A DNA stretch of 64,000 bases from Chitinophagaceae bacterium (GTDB taxonomy: Bacteria > Bacteroidota > Bacteroidia > Chitinophagales > Chitinophagaceae): NCBI GenBank assembly GCA_947374225.1, contig CANCAY010000005.1, forward strand, positions 19,428 through 83,427. The letters are read 5' to 3'. The notes below the pieces were generated by a model that was not told the DNA's origin, searched no databases, and saw nothing but the letters and a program-made list of their open reading frames with translations. This document shows, one piece after another, positions 20,665 to 26,790 of this stretch. A program made the position numbers and the translations under genes. How positions within the stretch are numbered: the first letter of the stretch is position 1; each line of letters begins with the position of its first letter.

Positions 20665-22353
20665 ATGCATAATTACGAGATAGCCGAATACTTTACATTA
20701 CTAAGTAAGTTAATGGACATACATGGAGAGAATCCATTCAAGGTGAAATCCTATGCCAGCGCGGCTTTCACGTTAGACAAACTATCAGAGCCCGTTGTTA
20801 ATTTAGAACCTGCGCAGTTATACGCTATTCGTGGAATTGGAGAAGCAATTGGAAAAAAAATTCTTGCTATTATAAGTACTAAACATTTAGACTTATTAGA
20901 CGAGTATATTAAAAATACGCCTCCTGGAATTTTAGAAATGATTAAGATAAAAGGATTAGGTCCTAAAAAAATCACCACCATTTGGAAAGAATTAGAAATA
21001 GAAAGTGTTGGTGAATTATTATATGCTTGTAATGAAAACAGATTAATAAATTACAAAGGCTTCGGTGCAAAAACACAACAGAATATTCAAGAGGCTTTAG
21101 AATATTATTTACAACATCAAGGTAATTTTTTATACCAAGAAGTAGAACCAATTGTTGCTTCTTTAACTTTAGCACTTACTCAAAACTTTGAAAAAGAAAC
21201 ACATTTAATTGCTGGCGGATTTGCCCGACAAATGGAAACTTTAGACTTTTTGGACATTATTACTACCCTTTCTCAAAATAATTTAAGGACTTGGCTGGAG
21301 GAAAAATCATTTATTTGTGCCCCAGTAGGAAACTATTTAAGCTGCAAAGGATCCGATAATTTTGAACTACGATGGCATACTTGTAGTAAAACCGAGCTGG
21401 TTTTTACCGCATTTAAGTTGAATTGCTCCCCTGAATTTTGGTCAGCTATTGAAAATCTGCCAAATTATAATCAAACTGAGTTTGAAACTACCCCATTTGA
21501 CAATGAAATAGCCTTATTTGAAAAACTAGGCATCAGTTATATACCTGCACCACAAAGAGAGACAGCTGCTATTGTAAACAAAGCAATTTCAAAACAACCT
21601 ATTGCTAAAACAATTCAAACATCCGATATAAAAGGAATTATTCATAGTCATAGTACCTGGAGTGACGGTATTCATTCCATTGAACAAATGGCTTTGGCAG
21701 CCATTGAAAAAGGTTTTGAATATTTAGTAATAAGCGATCACTCTAAATCGGCCTTCTATGCAAATGGTTTACAAATAGATCGCATCAGAAACCAGCATAA
21801 GGAAATTGACGCGCTCAATAAAAAGCTAGCACCATTTGTGATTTTTAAAAGTATTGAATCAGATATTTTAAATGACGGTAGTTTAGATTACGCAGACGAA
21901 GTCTTAGAAACATTTGATATTGTAATTGCTTCCGTACATTCTAATTTAAAAATGAGTGAAGAAAAAGCAATGATGCGTTTATTAAATGCTGTGAGTAACC
22001 CATACACAAGTATTTTAGGGCACCCTACAGGCCGTTTATTGTTAAGCCGAAAAGGATATCCAGTGGATCACGAAAAGTTAATAGAAGCCTGCGTAGTACA
22101 TAATGTGGTATTAGAATTAAATGCGCATCCTAGAAGATTGGATATGGACTGGAGATATATTGAATCTGCCATTGAAAAGGACGTATTAATTTCCATTAAT
22201 CCGGACGCCCATGAAGTGGATGGATTTGATGATTGTAAGTACGGAGTTTTAGTCGCACAAAAAGCTGGATGTCGTGCCAGCCAGAACCTAAGTAGCTTTA
22301 GTTTACAAGAAATGATGGAGTTTGTAGCGTTTCAACAGGAAAAGAGAAATTAA
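20665..22353 (+). CDS. polX: PolX-type protein with HhH and PHP domains, degenerate polymerase site
   Basis: A 562-aa family X protein: helix-hairpin-helix region at about residues 45-130, nucleotidyltransferase core at about 150-290, and a PHP domain at about 320-555. The PHP metal site looks complete: HSHSTWSDG (His327, His329), SIESDIL, SVHSNL, GHPTGR and NPDAHEVDG. This suggests a working 3'-5' exonuclease or AP-endonuclease. In contrast the polymerase signature, normally AGS-RR----ET--DxD, reads AGGFARQMETLDFLD: the first catalytic Asp position is Phe195, and the third Asp position reads FELR (Glu234). Polymerase activity is therefore doubtful. Its family placement is secure; the repair role is inferred. 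Confidence 0.9.
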   Translation: MHNYEIAEYFTLLSKLMDIHGENPFKVKSYASAAFTLDKLSEPVVNLEPAQLYAIRGIGEAIGKKILAIISTKHLDLLDEYIKNTPPGILEMIKIKGLGPKKITTIWKELEIESVGELLYACNENRLINYKGFGAKTQQNIQEALEYYLQHQGNFLYQEVEPIVASLTLALTQNFEKETHLIAGGFARQMETLDFLDIITTLSQNNLRTWLEEKSFICAPVGNYLSCKGSDNFELRWHTCSKTELVFTAFKLNCSPEFWSAIENLPNYNQTEFETTPFDNEIALFEKLGISYIPAPQRETAAIVNKAISKQPIAKTIQTSDIKGIIHSHSTWSDGIHSIEQMALAAIEKGFEYLVISDHSKSAFYANGLQIDRIRNQHKEIDALNKKLAPFVIFKSIESDILNDGSLDYADEVLETFDIVIASVHSNLKMSEEKAMMRLLNAVSNPYTSILGHPTGRLLLSRKGYPVDHEKLIEACVVHNVVLELNAHPRRLDMDWRYIESAIEKDVLISINPDAHEVDGFDDCKYGVLVAQKAGCRASQNLSSFSLQEMMEFVAFQQEKRN

Positions 22354-22588
22354 ATTTAATTTTCTATGTTGTTGTAATTGAACCATTTAACTAAGCGTAT
22401 TTTGTATTTTTCTACCAATATATTATATATGTCAAACATTAACATATAAGCCCAATATATAAGCCTACCTTACACTCCTGCTATGTTCCTCTCACGTGTT
22501 TGAGCAAACCCTATTGAATATTCTTCAAACTGAATTTCAATCACTGTTTATTTAGCCTGTTACTTTCTCTTTTCGCTAAATAACCAAA
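22354..22588. other. Gene-free AT-rich spacer, nothing firm
   Basis: 235 bases between polX and the T9SS cargo gene. No ORF, hairpin terminator or exact -7 box was found. Only a loose TTACTTTC-type sequence lies upstream of the next gene. The polX terminator is not obvious. Confidence 0.4.
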
Positions 22589-23071
22589 ATGTACTTTAAA
22601 ATTCTTCTATCTGTATCTGTAATCATTTCGTGTACTAATATCTTGTATGCACAGTTAAGTATTCCAAGTGCTGGTCTTACAATTTCAAATAGCTATGGGA
22701 ACATGAGCTATACTATTGGACAGGTAGATTATATAAGTACTCCAATTGGGAATCTAGGAACCTTGTCAGAAGGAGTGCAACAGGTTTATAACGCTTTGCC
22801 ATTTACTTACATCGTAAATATAGACAGGTCAACTACCCTATCTGTGTGGCCCAATCCCGTTATAGATAATTTAAATATAAAAATTAATAGCGGAGCCGTC
22901 TCCGGAATATCATACCAATTAATGAGTATGAATGGGCAACTTATTGAAAATAAAAAAACTTTTAGCAGCGAAATTAAAGTTGACACGCATAATTATACAG
23001 TGGGTGCCTATATTTTATCAGTTATACTACCGAATCAAGCGCCTATTCAATTTAAAATAATCAAACAATAA
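22589..23071 (+). CDS. Small secreted protein with T9SS type A sorting domain
   Basis: A 160-residue protein with a signal peptide (MYFKILLSVSVIISCTNILYAQ), a short mature part of about 60 residues, and a C-terminal T9SS sorting domain from about residue 84: LSVWPNPVIDNLNIKI, YQLMSMNGQLIENKK, YTVGAYILSV and FKIIKQ. Such domains send proteins through the outer membrane by type IX secretion, after which the domain is normally removed. The passenger is unusually small. The next gene starts 5 bases later and encodes a large surface-fibre protein, so the two are co-expressed. A shared surface structure is an inference. Confidence 0.88.
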   Translation: MYFKILLSVSVIISCTNILYAQLSIPSAGLTISNSYGNMSYTIGQVDYISTPIGNLGTLSEGVQQVYNALPFTYIVNIDRSTTLSVWPNPVIDNLNIKINSGAVSGISYQLMSMNGQLIENKKTFSSEIKVDTHNYTVGAYILSVILPNQAPIQFKIIKQ

Positions 23072-23076
23072 ATATT

Positions 23077-25485
23077 ATGACTAGAAAAACAATTGTTGTA
23101 ATATTTATGATCATGATTAGTGATTTACTTAATGCACAAGCTCCTCAAAAAATGAGCTTTCAAGCAGTCATACGAAATGCAAGCAATGCGGTGGTGTCAA
23201 GAAGCAACGTTGGAATAAGAATAAGTATTTTACAAGGTTCAACTACTGGAACAATAGTTTACGCTGAAACACAAACGGCAACGACTAATTTTAATGGATT
23301 GATTAGTTTACAAATAGGCACAGGCACATTAGTAACTGGAAATTTCTCTTTAATTGATTGGGCGAAAGGCCCCTACTTTATAAAGACCGAAACTGATCCT
23401 AATGGTGGCACCGATTATGCAATAGTTGGCTCGAGTGAATTATTAAGTGTCCCTTATGCATTGTTTGCCTTAAATACAAGTCCTACTGCATCTATAGATG
23501 ATAATTTAGGAAGCTCTACAGATTTTATGGATCTATCTACCCTACAGCTAAATAAAGAGGTAACTATTTATATTGATAAGTCCCTAAATTTTGCAACAAT
23601 TGGTAATATCATTGTTTCTAATAGCGATGCCAATCATTTGGAAGGTTCTTTTATTTCTTATAATAAAACAACTGGAAAGCTTATTATTAAAATAACAGAA
23701 GTAATTGGTAATGGAAGTTTCAGTTCTTGGAAAATTAAAATAAATAGTACAAGAGGTTATAGTGGTATAAATGGTACAATCGGAGCAAATGGATTAACAG
23801 GATCTGTTGGCGCTACTGGTGCTACAGGTGCTGCAGGTGCAGATGGTGTTACTGATACCACTGACACAGATAGTGCTATTTCAGAGCCTATAATAACTAT
23901 GGGAAATTCAAATCAGTATTATAGAGGCGATAAAACTTGGCAGACTTTAGATGCTTCAACAATTGGATTAGGGAATGTTGACAATACTTCAGATTTTAAT
24001 AAATCTACTTATGCATCAACAAAATTAACAACTCCAAGAAATATCAATGGAATAAGTTTTGATGGAACCCATGATATCACAATAACTGCTGCGACCAATG
24101 ACGCAACAAACTTAGTAAAAGGTAGGATTTTACTTGGAGGAGACTTAAACGGCATTGGCAGCTCCTCCTTGACCCCTATTATAAGTGTAAATGCAATTAC
24201 AAATGAAAAAATAGCTGACAATGCGATATCATCATCCAAAATATTAGATAATAATATTACGGAATCTAAAATTGCAAATTTAGCTGTAACTGATAGCAAA
24301 ATTTCATCTTTAAGTGGTTCTAAAATTATAGGTAATATTCCAGGTAAAGCTTCAAATATTACAGGCATATTAACGCTTGCAAATGGTGGAACAGGAGCGG
24401 TTAATGCAGCTGGAGCAAAAGTTGCCATTGGCTTATCCAATATTGATAATACAAGCGATTTAGATAAACCTATTTCAACCGCAACAACAGCATTTGTTTT
24501 AGCAAATTCAGATGCATACAATGCTATCACTGCAGGAAATGAAATTTTCACGAATTCCTCTTCGGATATTTTAGCAACAGGGCTCACTTTCACCCCTCCA
24601 GCTGGCAAGTATATTGTTAACTTTAATAGTCAATATACAATCGAGCCAGGTGATAGAACAGGTCAAGCACAAATTGATTTAACAGCAGCTTATGCAAATT
24701 TAATGGCTAGAACAGTAACCAACTCAACACACGGAGTTGGCTATGGTGCTGGTGAAACACTTAGTCCTGGTGTTTATAGAACAGCTGGGGCTGTAACAAC
24801 CACTGGGACCCTAACCCTAGACGGCGGAGGCAATCCAAATGCTGAATTTATTTTTCAATTTGGAGCAGCCATGAGTACAGGGGCAGGTTTTAAAATTATA
24901 CTTACCAATGGAGCATCTGCATGTAATGTTTATTGGGTTGCAGAAGGCGCTATTGCATTAGGAGCTGCAACAGAGATGAAAGGAATGCTTATCTCTAATA
25001 GTGGTGCCGTTTCTTTAGGAAGTATGTCTGATGTGCAAGGGAATTTATATAGTAATGGAGGTGCTATTGGAATTGATGCTTCAACAATTGCTAGAATAAA
25101 CGGTTGCGCAAACAATTTTGGCAGCATAAATAATTTTGCAATTTTTTCAAAAACTGGGAATATATCGAATGCAGGAGCTTCCACTATTACAGGAGATATT
25201 GCATCTAATACTGGTAGTGTAACTGGATTTGGAACTGCTACATTAAATGGGAATATTTATACTTCAGGAATTAGCATTGCTACTGCAAATTTCAGTGTAT
25301 ATCAAAATGGAATCTTGATTCCTTATTCTACTCGAAAAAGAACCAGCTTCATGAATATTGGAGAAATTACACTACAAGCTTTAGCAACAATTGGGAATGG
25401 TGAAAATGTAGAAATTAGGTGGAATATTGACTTAGGGAAAGTAAAAATGCAAAATAGGATTTTCACTATTCAACATGTTCGTTAA
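23077..25485 (+). CDS. Chimeric surface fibre protein with ice-binding-like (DUF3494) domain
   Basis: An 802-aa protein with a signal peptide ending LLNAQAPQ. The order is: an N-terminal MSFQAVIRN domain common in Bacteroidota cell-surface proteins (about 22-140); a short collagen-like Gly-X-Y run (about 229-258); phage-tail-fibre-like modules GLGNVDNTSD (297-306), TPRNINGISFDGTHDI (about 318-333) and GLSNIDNTSDLDKP (452-465); and a DUF3494 ice-binding-like domain (about 500-680) with the typical DLTAAYANL, LSPGVYR, PNAEFIFQ and ACNVYWV segments. It ends with a beta-rich tail (VEIRWNIDLG). It has no T9SS domain of its own. Ice binding is not certain: many DUF3494 proteins are adhesins. Confidence 0.85.
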   Translation: MTRKTIVVIFMIMISDLLNAQAPQKMSFQAVIRNASNAVVSRSNVGIRISILQGSTTGTIVYAETQTATTNFNGLISLQIGTGTLVTGNFSLIDWAKGPYFIKTETDPNGGTDYAIVGSSELLSVPYALFALNTSPTASIDDNLGSSTDFMDLSTLQLNKEVTIYIDKSLNFATIGNIIVSNSDANHLEGSFISYNKTTGKLIIKITEVIGNGSFSSWKIKINSTRGYSGINGTIGANGLTGSVGATGATGAAGADGVTDTTDTDSAISEPIITMGNSNQYYRGDKTWQTLDASTIGLGNVDNTSDFNKSTYASTKLTTPRNINGISFDGTHDITITAATNDATNLVKGRILLGGDLNGIGSSSLTPIISVNAITNEKIADNAISSSKILDNNITESKIANLAVTDSKISSLSGSKIIGNIPGKASNITGILTLANGGTGAVNAAGAKVAIGLSNIDNTSDLDKPISTATTAFVLANSDAYNAITAGNEIFTNSSSDILATGLTFTPPAGKYIVNFNSQYTIEPGDRTGQAQIDLTAAYANLMARTVTNSTHGVGYGAGETLSPGVYRTAGAVTTTGTLTLDGGGNPNAEFIFQFGAAMSTGAGFKIILTNGASACNVYWVAEGAIALGAATEMKGMLISNSGAVSLGSMSDVQGNLYSNGGAIGIDASTIARINGCANNFGSINNFAIFSKTGNISNAGASTITGDIASNTGSVTGFGTATLNGNIYTSGISIATANFSVYQNGILIPYSTRKRTSFMNIGEITLQALATIGNGENVEIRWNIDLGKVKMQNRIFTIQHVR

Positions 25486-25530
25486 ACTAATTTTAATATT
25501 TGTACACTATTAAATAATTTATAAAATTGG

Positions 25531-26790
25531 CTATTGTTTCACATACACAAAATAATCACCTGGCATTAATTCGAAATGAATTGCACCATTGAACTGATAA
25601 GTCATCCCAGAAAATAATTGAGTAAATGATCCATTTAATTTTTCATGCGCGCATTCCATTTTAATAGCTTGCATAGAAACATTTAGTACTACTAGTACCG
25701 TCTCTTTTTCATCCATCCTAATAAATGCCAATGCCCCTGGATGGCTTGACGGTAAGTTAAAAGTACTACCGTGAATCATTACTGGATGGTCTTGTCTTAA
25801 TTGATTTAATGATTTATAAAAATCATGTAGTGCAGGTTTTGTGTTCCATTCAATTAAATCTTTGTCAAAAAATTGCAGCCTCTTATGCATTGGTAATTCT
25901 TGTCCACTATAAATTAATGGCATCCCTTTCCAGGTAAATGTGAATACTGCCCAAGGCTTTGCTGCAATTCCATACTTTTCATACTCTGTTCCATTCCAAC
26001 TATTCTCATCATGGTTGCTGGTATAAAAAAGTTTTAACGCTCCAGCAGGATATTGTTCATAATCATGTAAAATATTAAACACGTCATGTAAACTGGCTTC
26101 TCCTTTCATTAATCTTTCCGTTCTATGCATCCATTCCCAAGCATAACTTGTATCGAATACTTCATGGTATTCCACTACTTCACATTCTGCTAACCAAAAC
26201 AAAGGTTTACTATTCTTGAAAGAAGTTCTTGCTGTTTTCCAAAAATCCAAAGGCACCAAATGTGCCATATCGCACCTAAATCCATCAATATTAAAATCGT
26301 TTACCCAATAATGCATTGCATCAATTAAAGCTTTGCGCATGTCTGAATTGTGATAGTTCAAATCCACCACATCATCCCAGCCATTGCGTTCTGTAAATTT
26401 CCCTTCACTATCTTGAGCAAACCATTCTGGATTAGTTTCCATCCATTCATGTTGACGGCCTGTATGGTTCGCTACCCAGTCAATTATAATTTTCATGCCA
26501 TTAGCATGTACCGTATTTATTAAAGCGCTTAAATCCTGCACTGTTCCAAATTCAGGATTTATTTTGGTATAACTACTACATGCATAATAACTTCCTAATG
26601 TTCCCTTCTTGGCAACTTGACTAATTGGAGTGATTGGCATTAACCAAATAATCCCTACTCCCATGTCCTTTAGTCTTGGAATATGTGCTTCAAATGCTTT
26701 AAATGTTCCTTCGGGTGTGTACTGTCTAATGTTAACTTCATAAATGGAAGCAGTCGCAGCCCAGTCTGTAGTTTTAAAATTGGCGTTCAT
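25531..26790 (-). CDS. Cytoplasmic alpha-amylase family glycosidase (GH13)
   Basis: A 419-aa GH13 enzyme without a signal peptide (starts MNANFKTTDWAATASIYEVN), so it should act inside the cell. The catalytic regions are DWVANHTG, GFRCDMAHLV (nucleophile Asp), FWLAECE (acid/base Glu) and TSNHDENSW. It is paralogous to the exported enzyme at 6715-8028, with long stretches of near-identical motif order. The likely substrates are maltodextrins taken up after outside digestion, which is an inference. It is divergent from the APC permease gene with 49 bases between starts. Confidence 0.93.
   Translation of the reverse strand: MNANFKTTDWAATASIYEVNIRQYTPEGTFKAFEAHIPRLKDMGVGIIWLMPITPISQVAKKGTLGSYYACSSYTKINPEFGTVQDLSALINTVHANGMKIIIDWVANHTGRQHEWMETNPEWFAQDSEGKFTERNGWDDVVDLNYHNSDMRKALIDAMHYWVNDFNIDGFRCDMAHLVPLDFWKTARTSFKNSKPLFWLAECEVVEYHEVFDTSYAWEWMHRTERLMKGEASLHDVFNILHDYEQYPAGALKLFYTSNHDENSWNGTEYEKYGIAAKPWAVFTFTWKGMPLIYSGQELPMHKRLQFFDKDLIEWNTKPALHDFYKSLNQLRQDHPVMIHGSTFNLPSSHPGALAFIRMDEKETVLVVLNVSMQAIKMECAHEKLNGSFTQLFSGMTYQFNGAIHFELMPGDYFVYVKQ

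Follow-up and report, generated by a model that had tools for sequence, protein, structure and literature searches.

A putative circularly permuted DUF3494 domain nested in the tip of a predicted Chitinophagaceae surface fibre, with counterparts on viral contigs

Results

A fibre gene and the gene of a small proposed partner lie between polX and an amylase gene

The window is the whole 64,000-nucleotide stretch of Chitinophagaceae DNA that was analysed. On its plus strand, an 802-aa open reading frame follows a gene for a 160-aa secreted protein. The gene pair and the segments assigned to the fibre are as follows.

22354..25530, no strand assigned: two-gene insertion between polX (20665-22353) and an alpha-amylase-family gene (25531-26790, minus strand)
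22589..23071, plus strand: 160-aa secreted protein with a T9SS type A C-terminal sorting domain (Por_Secre_tail; PF18962 1e-9, TIGR04183 2.7e-9)
23077..25485, plus strand: fibre ORF, 802 aa, exact on re-check
23077..23136, plus strand: signal peptide, residues ~1-20, by inspection (hydrophobic N-terminus ending LNA-QAPQ)
23146..23475, plus strand: MAT-N-like anchor domain, residues 24-133 (NF053851 match, own-genome relatives)
23509..23748, plus strand: beta-rich segment, residues 145-224 (weak phage similarity)
23755..23853, plus strand: collagen-like Gly-X-Y run, residues 227-259 (PF01391 4e-4, below its cut-off)
23860..24111, plus strand: phage tail-fibre-like stalk, residues 262-345 (PHROGs 38418, 33513 and 1833)
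24100..24294, plus strand: DUF5907 repeat, residues 342-406 (PF19264 2.2e-8, over cut-off)
24349..24501, plus strand: second fibre repeat (NGGTG...GLSNIDNTSD), residues 425-475 (PHROG 35419, tail fiber; PHROG 13892, minor tail)
24514..24633, plus strand: predicted first half of a TNF/C1q/BclA_C-like sandwich, residues 480-519 (alignment with the uninterrupted homologues G250 and G455, AF2 strands, loop length)
24655..25101, plus strand: DUF3494 C-terminal part (alpha-helix, coils beta2-beta6), residues 527-675, which comes first (PF11999; 5uyt 1.4e-49; AF2)
25114..25278, plus strand: DUF3494 N-terminal part (coil beta1, cap), residues 680-734, which comes second (second-stretch alignments of 5uyt and 6eio; tandem alignment)
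25291..25482, plus strand: predicted second half of the TNF/C1q-like sandwich, residues 739-802, the C-terminus (same alignments, loop length; Foldseek BC2L-C, PLTL, BclA, BxpB)

A sequence-only reading of this DNA had described a secreted, fibre-like protein, and this description is supported. The ORF, the motifs GLGNVDNTSD (residue 297) and GLSNIDNTSD (452), the segment TPRNINGISFDGTHDI (319) and the Gly-X-Y run all lie where that reading had placed them.

The fibre gene is chromosomal, with polX and the amylase gene as neighbours, and it is not among phage genes, none of which adjoin it at this locus. In six congeners polX directly adjoins the amylase gene, at a distance of roughly 20-55 bp, and these genomes lack both the fibre gene and the 160-aa gene. 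The pair was therefore gained in this lineage or lost in those, and a gain is the simpler account. Promoter and terminator scans at the locus stayed near chance level. The ORF is intact in a second lineage, represented by two MAG contigs (L042 and L043) with ~88% DNA identity to 23077-25485. These Bacteroidota contigs (L042, 3984-4783; L043, 1-418) have a gene content nearly identical to that of the window and come from a MAG labelled Comamonas sp. lk (CALPWK), so that the bin is mixed or mislabelled. Where their fibre-gene ends overlap, identity is only 78.8%, suggestive of two diverged copies or a strain mixture.

The 160-aa gene ends, with its stop codon, 5 bp before the fibre ATG. Relatives of the 160-aa gene end 40-123 bp before MAT-N matches in six other genera (G006, G021, G022, G040, G048 and G049), and on the Aureispira anguillae plasmid NZ_AP026868.1 a gene annotated with a T9SS type A sorting domain lies 3 bp upstream of the MAT-N-like relative. 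The genome itself encodes SprA (SprA_N 3e-149), indicating that T9SS is present; Pfam and NCBIfam profiles found no T9SS C-terminal sorting domain in the 802-aa fibre. From these sequences, we propose that the 160-aa protein may be a surface partner or anchor of the fibre. The Aureispira pair (L222, 12260-14650; Saprospiraceae) consists of a small T9SS-sorted gene and a MAT-N-like gene, and a recombinase adjoins it.

The fibre appears to join a bacterial anchor to a largely phage-type stalk

NF053851, the NCBIfam model of the Bdellovibrio MAT N-domain, matches residues 13-86 at 4.9e-9 and 36 bits, under a 60-bit cut-off that no genome of the sampled family reached. At E <= 1e-3, the MAT-N-like anchor is found in 26 of 61 family genomes, and no relative of it was found in IMG/VR. 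At least five other fibres of the same genome, each with a different end, have this anchor in common (L002, L003, L004, L006 and L008). The 10-kb contig 76 of this genome (G000; L005-L007) bears two further large fibre ORFs, with open frames of 614 and 2198 aa and repeated DTVSLSNRI / NNTSD units.

The stalk is related to phage fibres, as had been claimed. Phage fibre and tail families in PHROGs match residues 242-345 and 427-509. For residues 270-331, identity to a minor tail protein of an actinophage reaches 60%, with 58 phage records in total, and residues 162-239 match a huge-phage genome at 34%. Residues 262-474 find 172 loci in IMG/VR, and the segment 260-334 is rare among relatives, occurring in 2 of 199 other family genomes. 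None of 2000 shuffles yielded the motif or a run of eight Gly-X-Y triplets. Repeats of the NxTSD type also occur in other Bacteroidota fibres, several loci of the same genome included; the sequence-only reading had named a common non-phage occurrence without fibre relation as an argument against itself, and this is partly borne out. Because stalk and anchor have different relatives, the protein reads as a composite of a bacterial anchor, a largely phage-type stalk and a head that is shared with phages.

The DUF3494 domain is predicted to be circularly permuted

PF11999 (Ice_binding) matches the 802-aa protein at 2.1e-33 (116 bits against a curated cut-off of 28.7), and in its best stretch residues 527-671 align with profile positions 62-207. 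What is normally the first part of the fold (LGS-NFA...ITGD...TGF) aligns with 5uyt and 6eio at residues 680-730, after the C-terminal part; the canonical DUF3494 chain order, N-part before C-part, is not found in the window head. Since DUF3494 is complete only in rotated order, the domain spans ~527-734 and the residues before 527 belong to another domain. The full DUF3494 domain that had been claimed is thus present when read in this order, at ~527-734 instead of 500-690.

In the AlphaFold2 model of residues 464-802 (pLDDT 85.3, pTM 0.66), a helix at 527-544 and a beta-helix form a triangular beta-helix with a long parallel alpha-helix, and Foldseek aligns this head model with 7bwx at an rmsd of 1.1 over 142 columns. 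In the AlphaFold2 models, the beta-helix is continuous through the rotated join. Crystal structures of DUF3494 proteins showed that the coils stack in the order b1-b6-b5-b4-b3-b2, with the last coil beside the first (PMC7966756, PMC7277481); joining b6 to b1 therefore yields a continuous solenoid and a natural circular permutation. After this join the chain would begin at the helix and finish at the cap that follows b1, and these two new ends are probably close together. Together, alignments and models argue that the window head is a DUF3494 domain in rotated order, a circular permutation. In tandem DUF3494 proteins of this bacterial family, the match covers a C1-N2 unit and does not extend to the flanks seen in the window. 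The permutation most likely would have arisen from a tandem DUF3494 pair that lost its outer parts.

The permuted domain may fill one loop of a TNF/C1q-like sandwich

Joined together, residues 480-519 and 739-802 match homologues that lack the interruption, in G250 (26% over 121 residues) and in G455. The loop that is 11 residues long in the uninterrupted sandwiches measures 219-238 residues, at the same place, in 11 nested tips, namely those with both flanking strands readable. Alignment and model thus point to a permuted DUF3494 domain filling one loop of a TNF/C1q-like sandwich. The DUF3494 domain does lie in the C-terminal head, as the sequence-only reading had it, and would be a nested, permuted solenoid there and not a plain terminal domain. 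Pfam searches on five relatives gave at best BclA_C at 4.7e-6 and C1q at 0.036, a weak C1q assignment by sequence alone. The joined halves of the window copy had no significant Pfam or PDB sequence match, so the sandwich fold rests on the alignment to relatives and on Foldseek. Weak joined-half matches in G103, G483, G306 and G569 were discarded as unrelated ORFs (histidine kinase, TolC-like, glycosyltransferase).

A phage tip, L157, was modelled with pLDDT 87.2 and pTM 0.74; this model and that of the window were built from the same nine sequences and are therefore not fully independent. Foldseek on the head models returned DUF3494 structures and TNF-like lectins (BC2L-C, PLTL, BclA and BxpB, mostly over ~78 columns), with BC2L-C 2WQ4 among the matches of the window head. 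It also aligned the 152-aa phage protein A0A6J5PPM8 over 359 columns (TMt 0.64, rmsd 9.9); this alignment is consistent with both halves forming one domain across the insert and is supportive, not decisive, because the rmsd is high.

Among viral proteins, the top Foldseek matches to both head models were the giant-virus proteins A0A481Z347 and A0A481YXR3 (Mimivirus LCMiAC02, Marseillevirus LCMAC201), which align over nearly the whole head length at about 10% identity and may share the nested plan. On contig 34 of G434 (L048/L054), the nested-tip gene adjoins an ORF of 127 aa that starts like a signal peptide and contains just the second sandwich half; this ORF is possibly a tip fragment or a cassette.

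Nested tips occur in bacteria and on viral contigs

Nested tips were found in six bacterial lineages and as six distinct sequences on viral contigs. Besides the window and its MAG relative (L042/L043), single ORFs of G655, G434, G1011 and G883 contain one. They are rare in bacteria: the class sample of 395 genomes held them in the window's own genome, G1011 and G883, and the phylum sample of 396 genomes in G655 and G434. The carriers in G655, G1011 and G883 have a different N-terminus, of the PD(A/P)SSI type.

Profile searches of IMG/VR yielded nested tips on eight contigs, corresponding to the six distinct sequences. Only profiles recovered these viral members: the window head used as a single sequence had no match in IMG/VR, and at the limits used INPHARED yielded no relatives for the heads of the window, L136 and L154. 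The viral carriers L155-L161 have a common N-terminal part, which in L157 matches proteins of cyanophages, including two with a tail fibre annotation, and L156, L157 and L158 match the tail fibre PHROG 28263. L154 and L159 are viral by IMG/VR classification only, and none of the four tested neighbours of L154 matched a PHROG. Ordinary DUF3494 domains also occur on viral contigs (L137-L153, IMG/VR); in L141 an extra segment appears to be inserted within the domain.

In the tree of DUF3494 units, all nested tips group in a single clade (99/96) that lies next to the tandem proteins, suggesting one origin. Within this clade phage and bacterial rows are interleaved, with L154 and L159 among the bacterial rows and L159 on a long branch. 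By sequence, the whole head, besides the stalk, is common to phages and the bacterium, which is a wider sharing than that of the stalk foreseen from sequence; its transfer may have run in either direction.

Discussion

The reading that we favour, with somewhat better than even confidence, is a cell-surface adhesin fibre of the mosaic-adhesive-trimer kind with an exchangeable head shared with phages. We regard the head as probably an interchangeable adhesion module and not simply an antifreeze protein, because the same nested tip is found on tail fibres of certain phages. Three chains would trimerise through stalk and sandwich, which would place three DUF3494 solenoids at each fibre end, projecting from the sandwich loops to form the contact surface. 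The 160-aa partner would exit via the type IX system, become fixed to the cell surface and hold the fibre by its N-domain. The ligand of the head would most likely be a surface, either a cell-envelope or matrix polymer or, in cold habitats, ice.

Two more specific functions seem to us unlikely, to about the same degree. A true ice adhesin would bind ice by the DUF3494 face and tether the cell or biofilm to ice by the fibre, as proposed for multidomain ice-binding proteins. Ice binding by the window head is possible and is weakly suggested by its sequence, given the strong PF11999 match and a nearest solved relative, 5uyt, that is an Antarctic ice-binding protein; moreover, architectures combining collagen and PF11999 in Arctic sea-ice metagenomes have been read as biofilm-ice anchors (PMC9957290). 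However, ice binding by AnpIBP needs the B-face residues S153 and T156 (PMC7277481), which by alignment correspond to Gly/Ala in the window head, a difference that is not decisive because DUF3494 ice faces are poorly conserved between proteins, and these data give no sign of an ice habitat for the organism. A prey- or host-recognition fibre like the Bdellovibrio MAT proteins, with a tip that binds glycans of other cells, would agree with the anchor's similarity to NF053851, with one anchor bearing different ends on several fibres of this genome, with the TNF-like lectins among the Foldseek matches and with the gene pair in Aureispira, and the same head occurs on the tail fibres of phages, which serve to recognise the host. 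Nevertheless, the anchor scores below the MAT-N cut-off, evidence of predation is absent, and the DUF3494 insert, for which sugar binding is not known, replaces a sandwich loop.

Phage relatives of both stalk and head might instead suggest that the gene is a tail-fibre remnant from a prophage or tailocin. We rejected this explanation on gene context and consider it barely credible: the gene is flanked by polX and the amylase gene with no phage genes adjoining, it is paired with a gene for T9SS cargo, its product begins with a signal peptide and a MAT-N anchor, and the ORF is preserved in a further lineage at ~88% identity. We likewise rejected an entirely phage origin because the MAT-N domain has no relative in IMG/VR. 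The rotated order could also be a mere fragment of a tandem DUF3494 pair between unrelated flanks, forming no single solenoid. Tandem proteins are common in the family and contain the C1-N2 order too, but the C1-N2 unit occupies an identical loop position in eleven tips of a single clade, it is kept in both phages and bacteria, and in confident models the beta-helix runs through the rotated join; we therefore hold this explanation to be improbable.

The domain architecture seen here is genuine and out of the ordinary, and we read it as a variant of the mosaic adhesive fibres. The MAT fibres of Bdellovibrio were first annotated as phage-like and have exchangeable tips that include TNF folds; the tip of Bd2734 is nearest to BC2L-C 2WQ4, and the holder of the N-domain was not known (PMC10769870). 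The window protein resembles the Bdellovibrio bacteriovorus MAT proteins as a phage-like chimeric fibre with a kept N-domain, exchanged tips, TNF-fold tips and a match to 2WQ4. It differs from them in its sub-cut-off anchor, Bacteroidota host, T9SS partner gene and DUF3494 domain nested in the tip; ice binding is not mentioned in the main text of the MAT paper (PMC10769870). The outer sandwich is predicted to have the fold of BC2L-C, the BclA C-terminal domain, BxpB/ExsF and phage C1q-domain proteins, whereas one loop carries a domain of ~220 aa instead of about 11 aa as in other TNF/C1q-like trimeric tips.

By sequence and model, the insert belongs to the same beta-helix family as the DUF3494/PF11999 proteins 5uyt, FfIBP, AnpIBP and TisAFP, but unlike these it would be permuted, nested and borne on a fibre, and its ice face differs at the two positions compared. 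It has the C1-N2 unit in common with tandem DUF3494 proteins of Bacteroidota, its sister group in the tree, which are not nested and whose first and last domains are complete. A combination of DUF3494 with collagen had already been described from metagenomes (PMC9957290).

PF11999 matches on viral contigs are also known: a survey called three viral 'ice-binding-like' genes cryoprotective AMGs (PMC11515562). In contrast, most viral PF11999 domains examined here are C-terminal parts of proteins that resemble tail-fibre proteins of cyanophages in their N-terminal parts, an arrangement pointing to devices for virion adsorption. For the nested viral genes seen here, a tail-fibre tip fits better than a cryoprotective AMG.

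Taken together, our data are compatible with a mobile head of single origin, a permuted DUF3494 domain in a TNF/C1q-like tip, that is common to surface fibres of Bacteroidota and tail fibres of tailed phages; part of the viral 'ice-binding' genes would then encode tips that bind receptors, and co-encoded T9SS cargo would hold the MAT-type fibres of Bacteroidota at the cell surface. We offer this joint reading tentatively, with slightly less than even confidence. The head would be an exchangeable module that moved between Bacteroidota fibres and phage tail fibres. It seems to represent a naturally occurring circular permutation of DUF3494; we found no earlier report of a permuted or nested DUF3494 domain in the open-access literature, to which our search was mostly confined. 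For viral PF11999 genes, these findings provide a testable alternative to the cryoprotective reading. Moreover, the small T9SS partner encoded upstream in several genera is a candidate for the surface element that holds MAT-type N-domains, and phage tail fibres and bacterial fibres have a head module in common.
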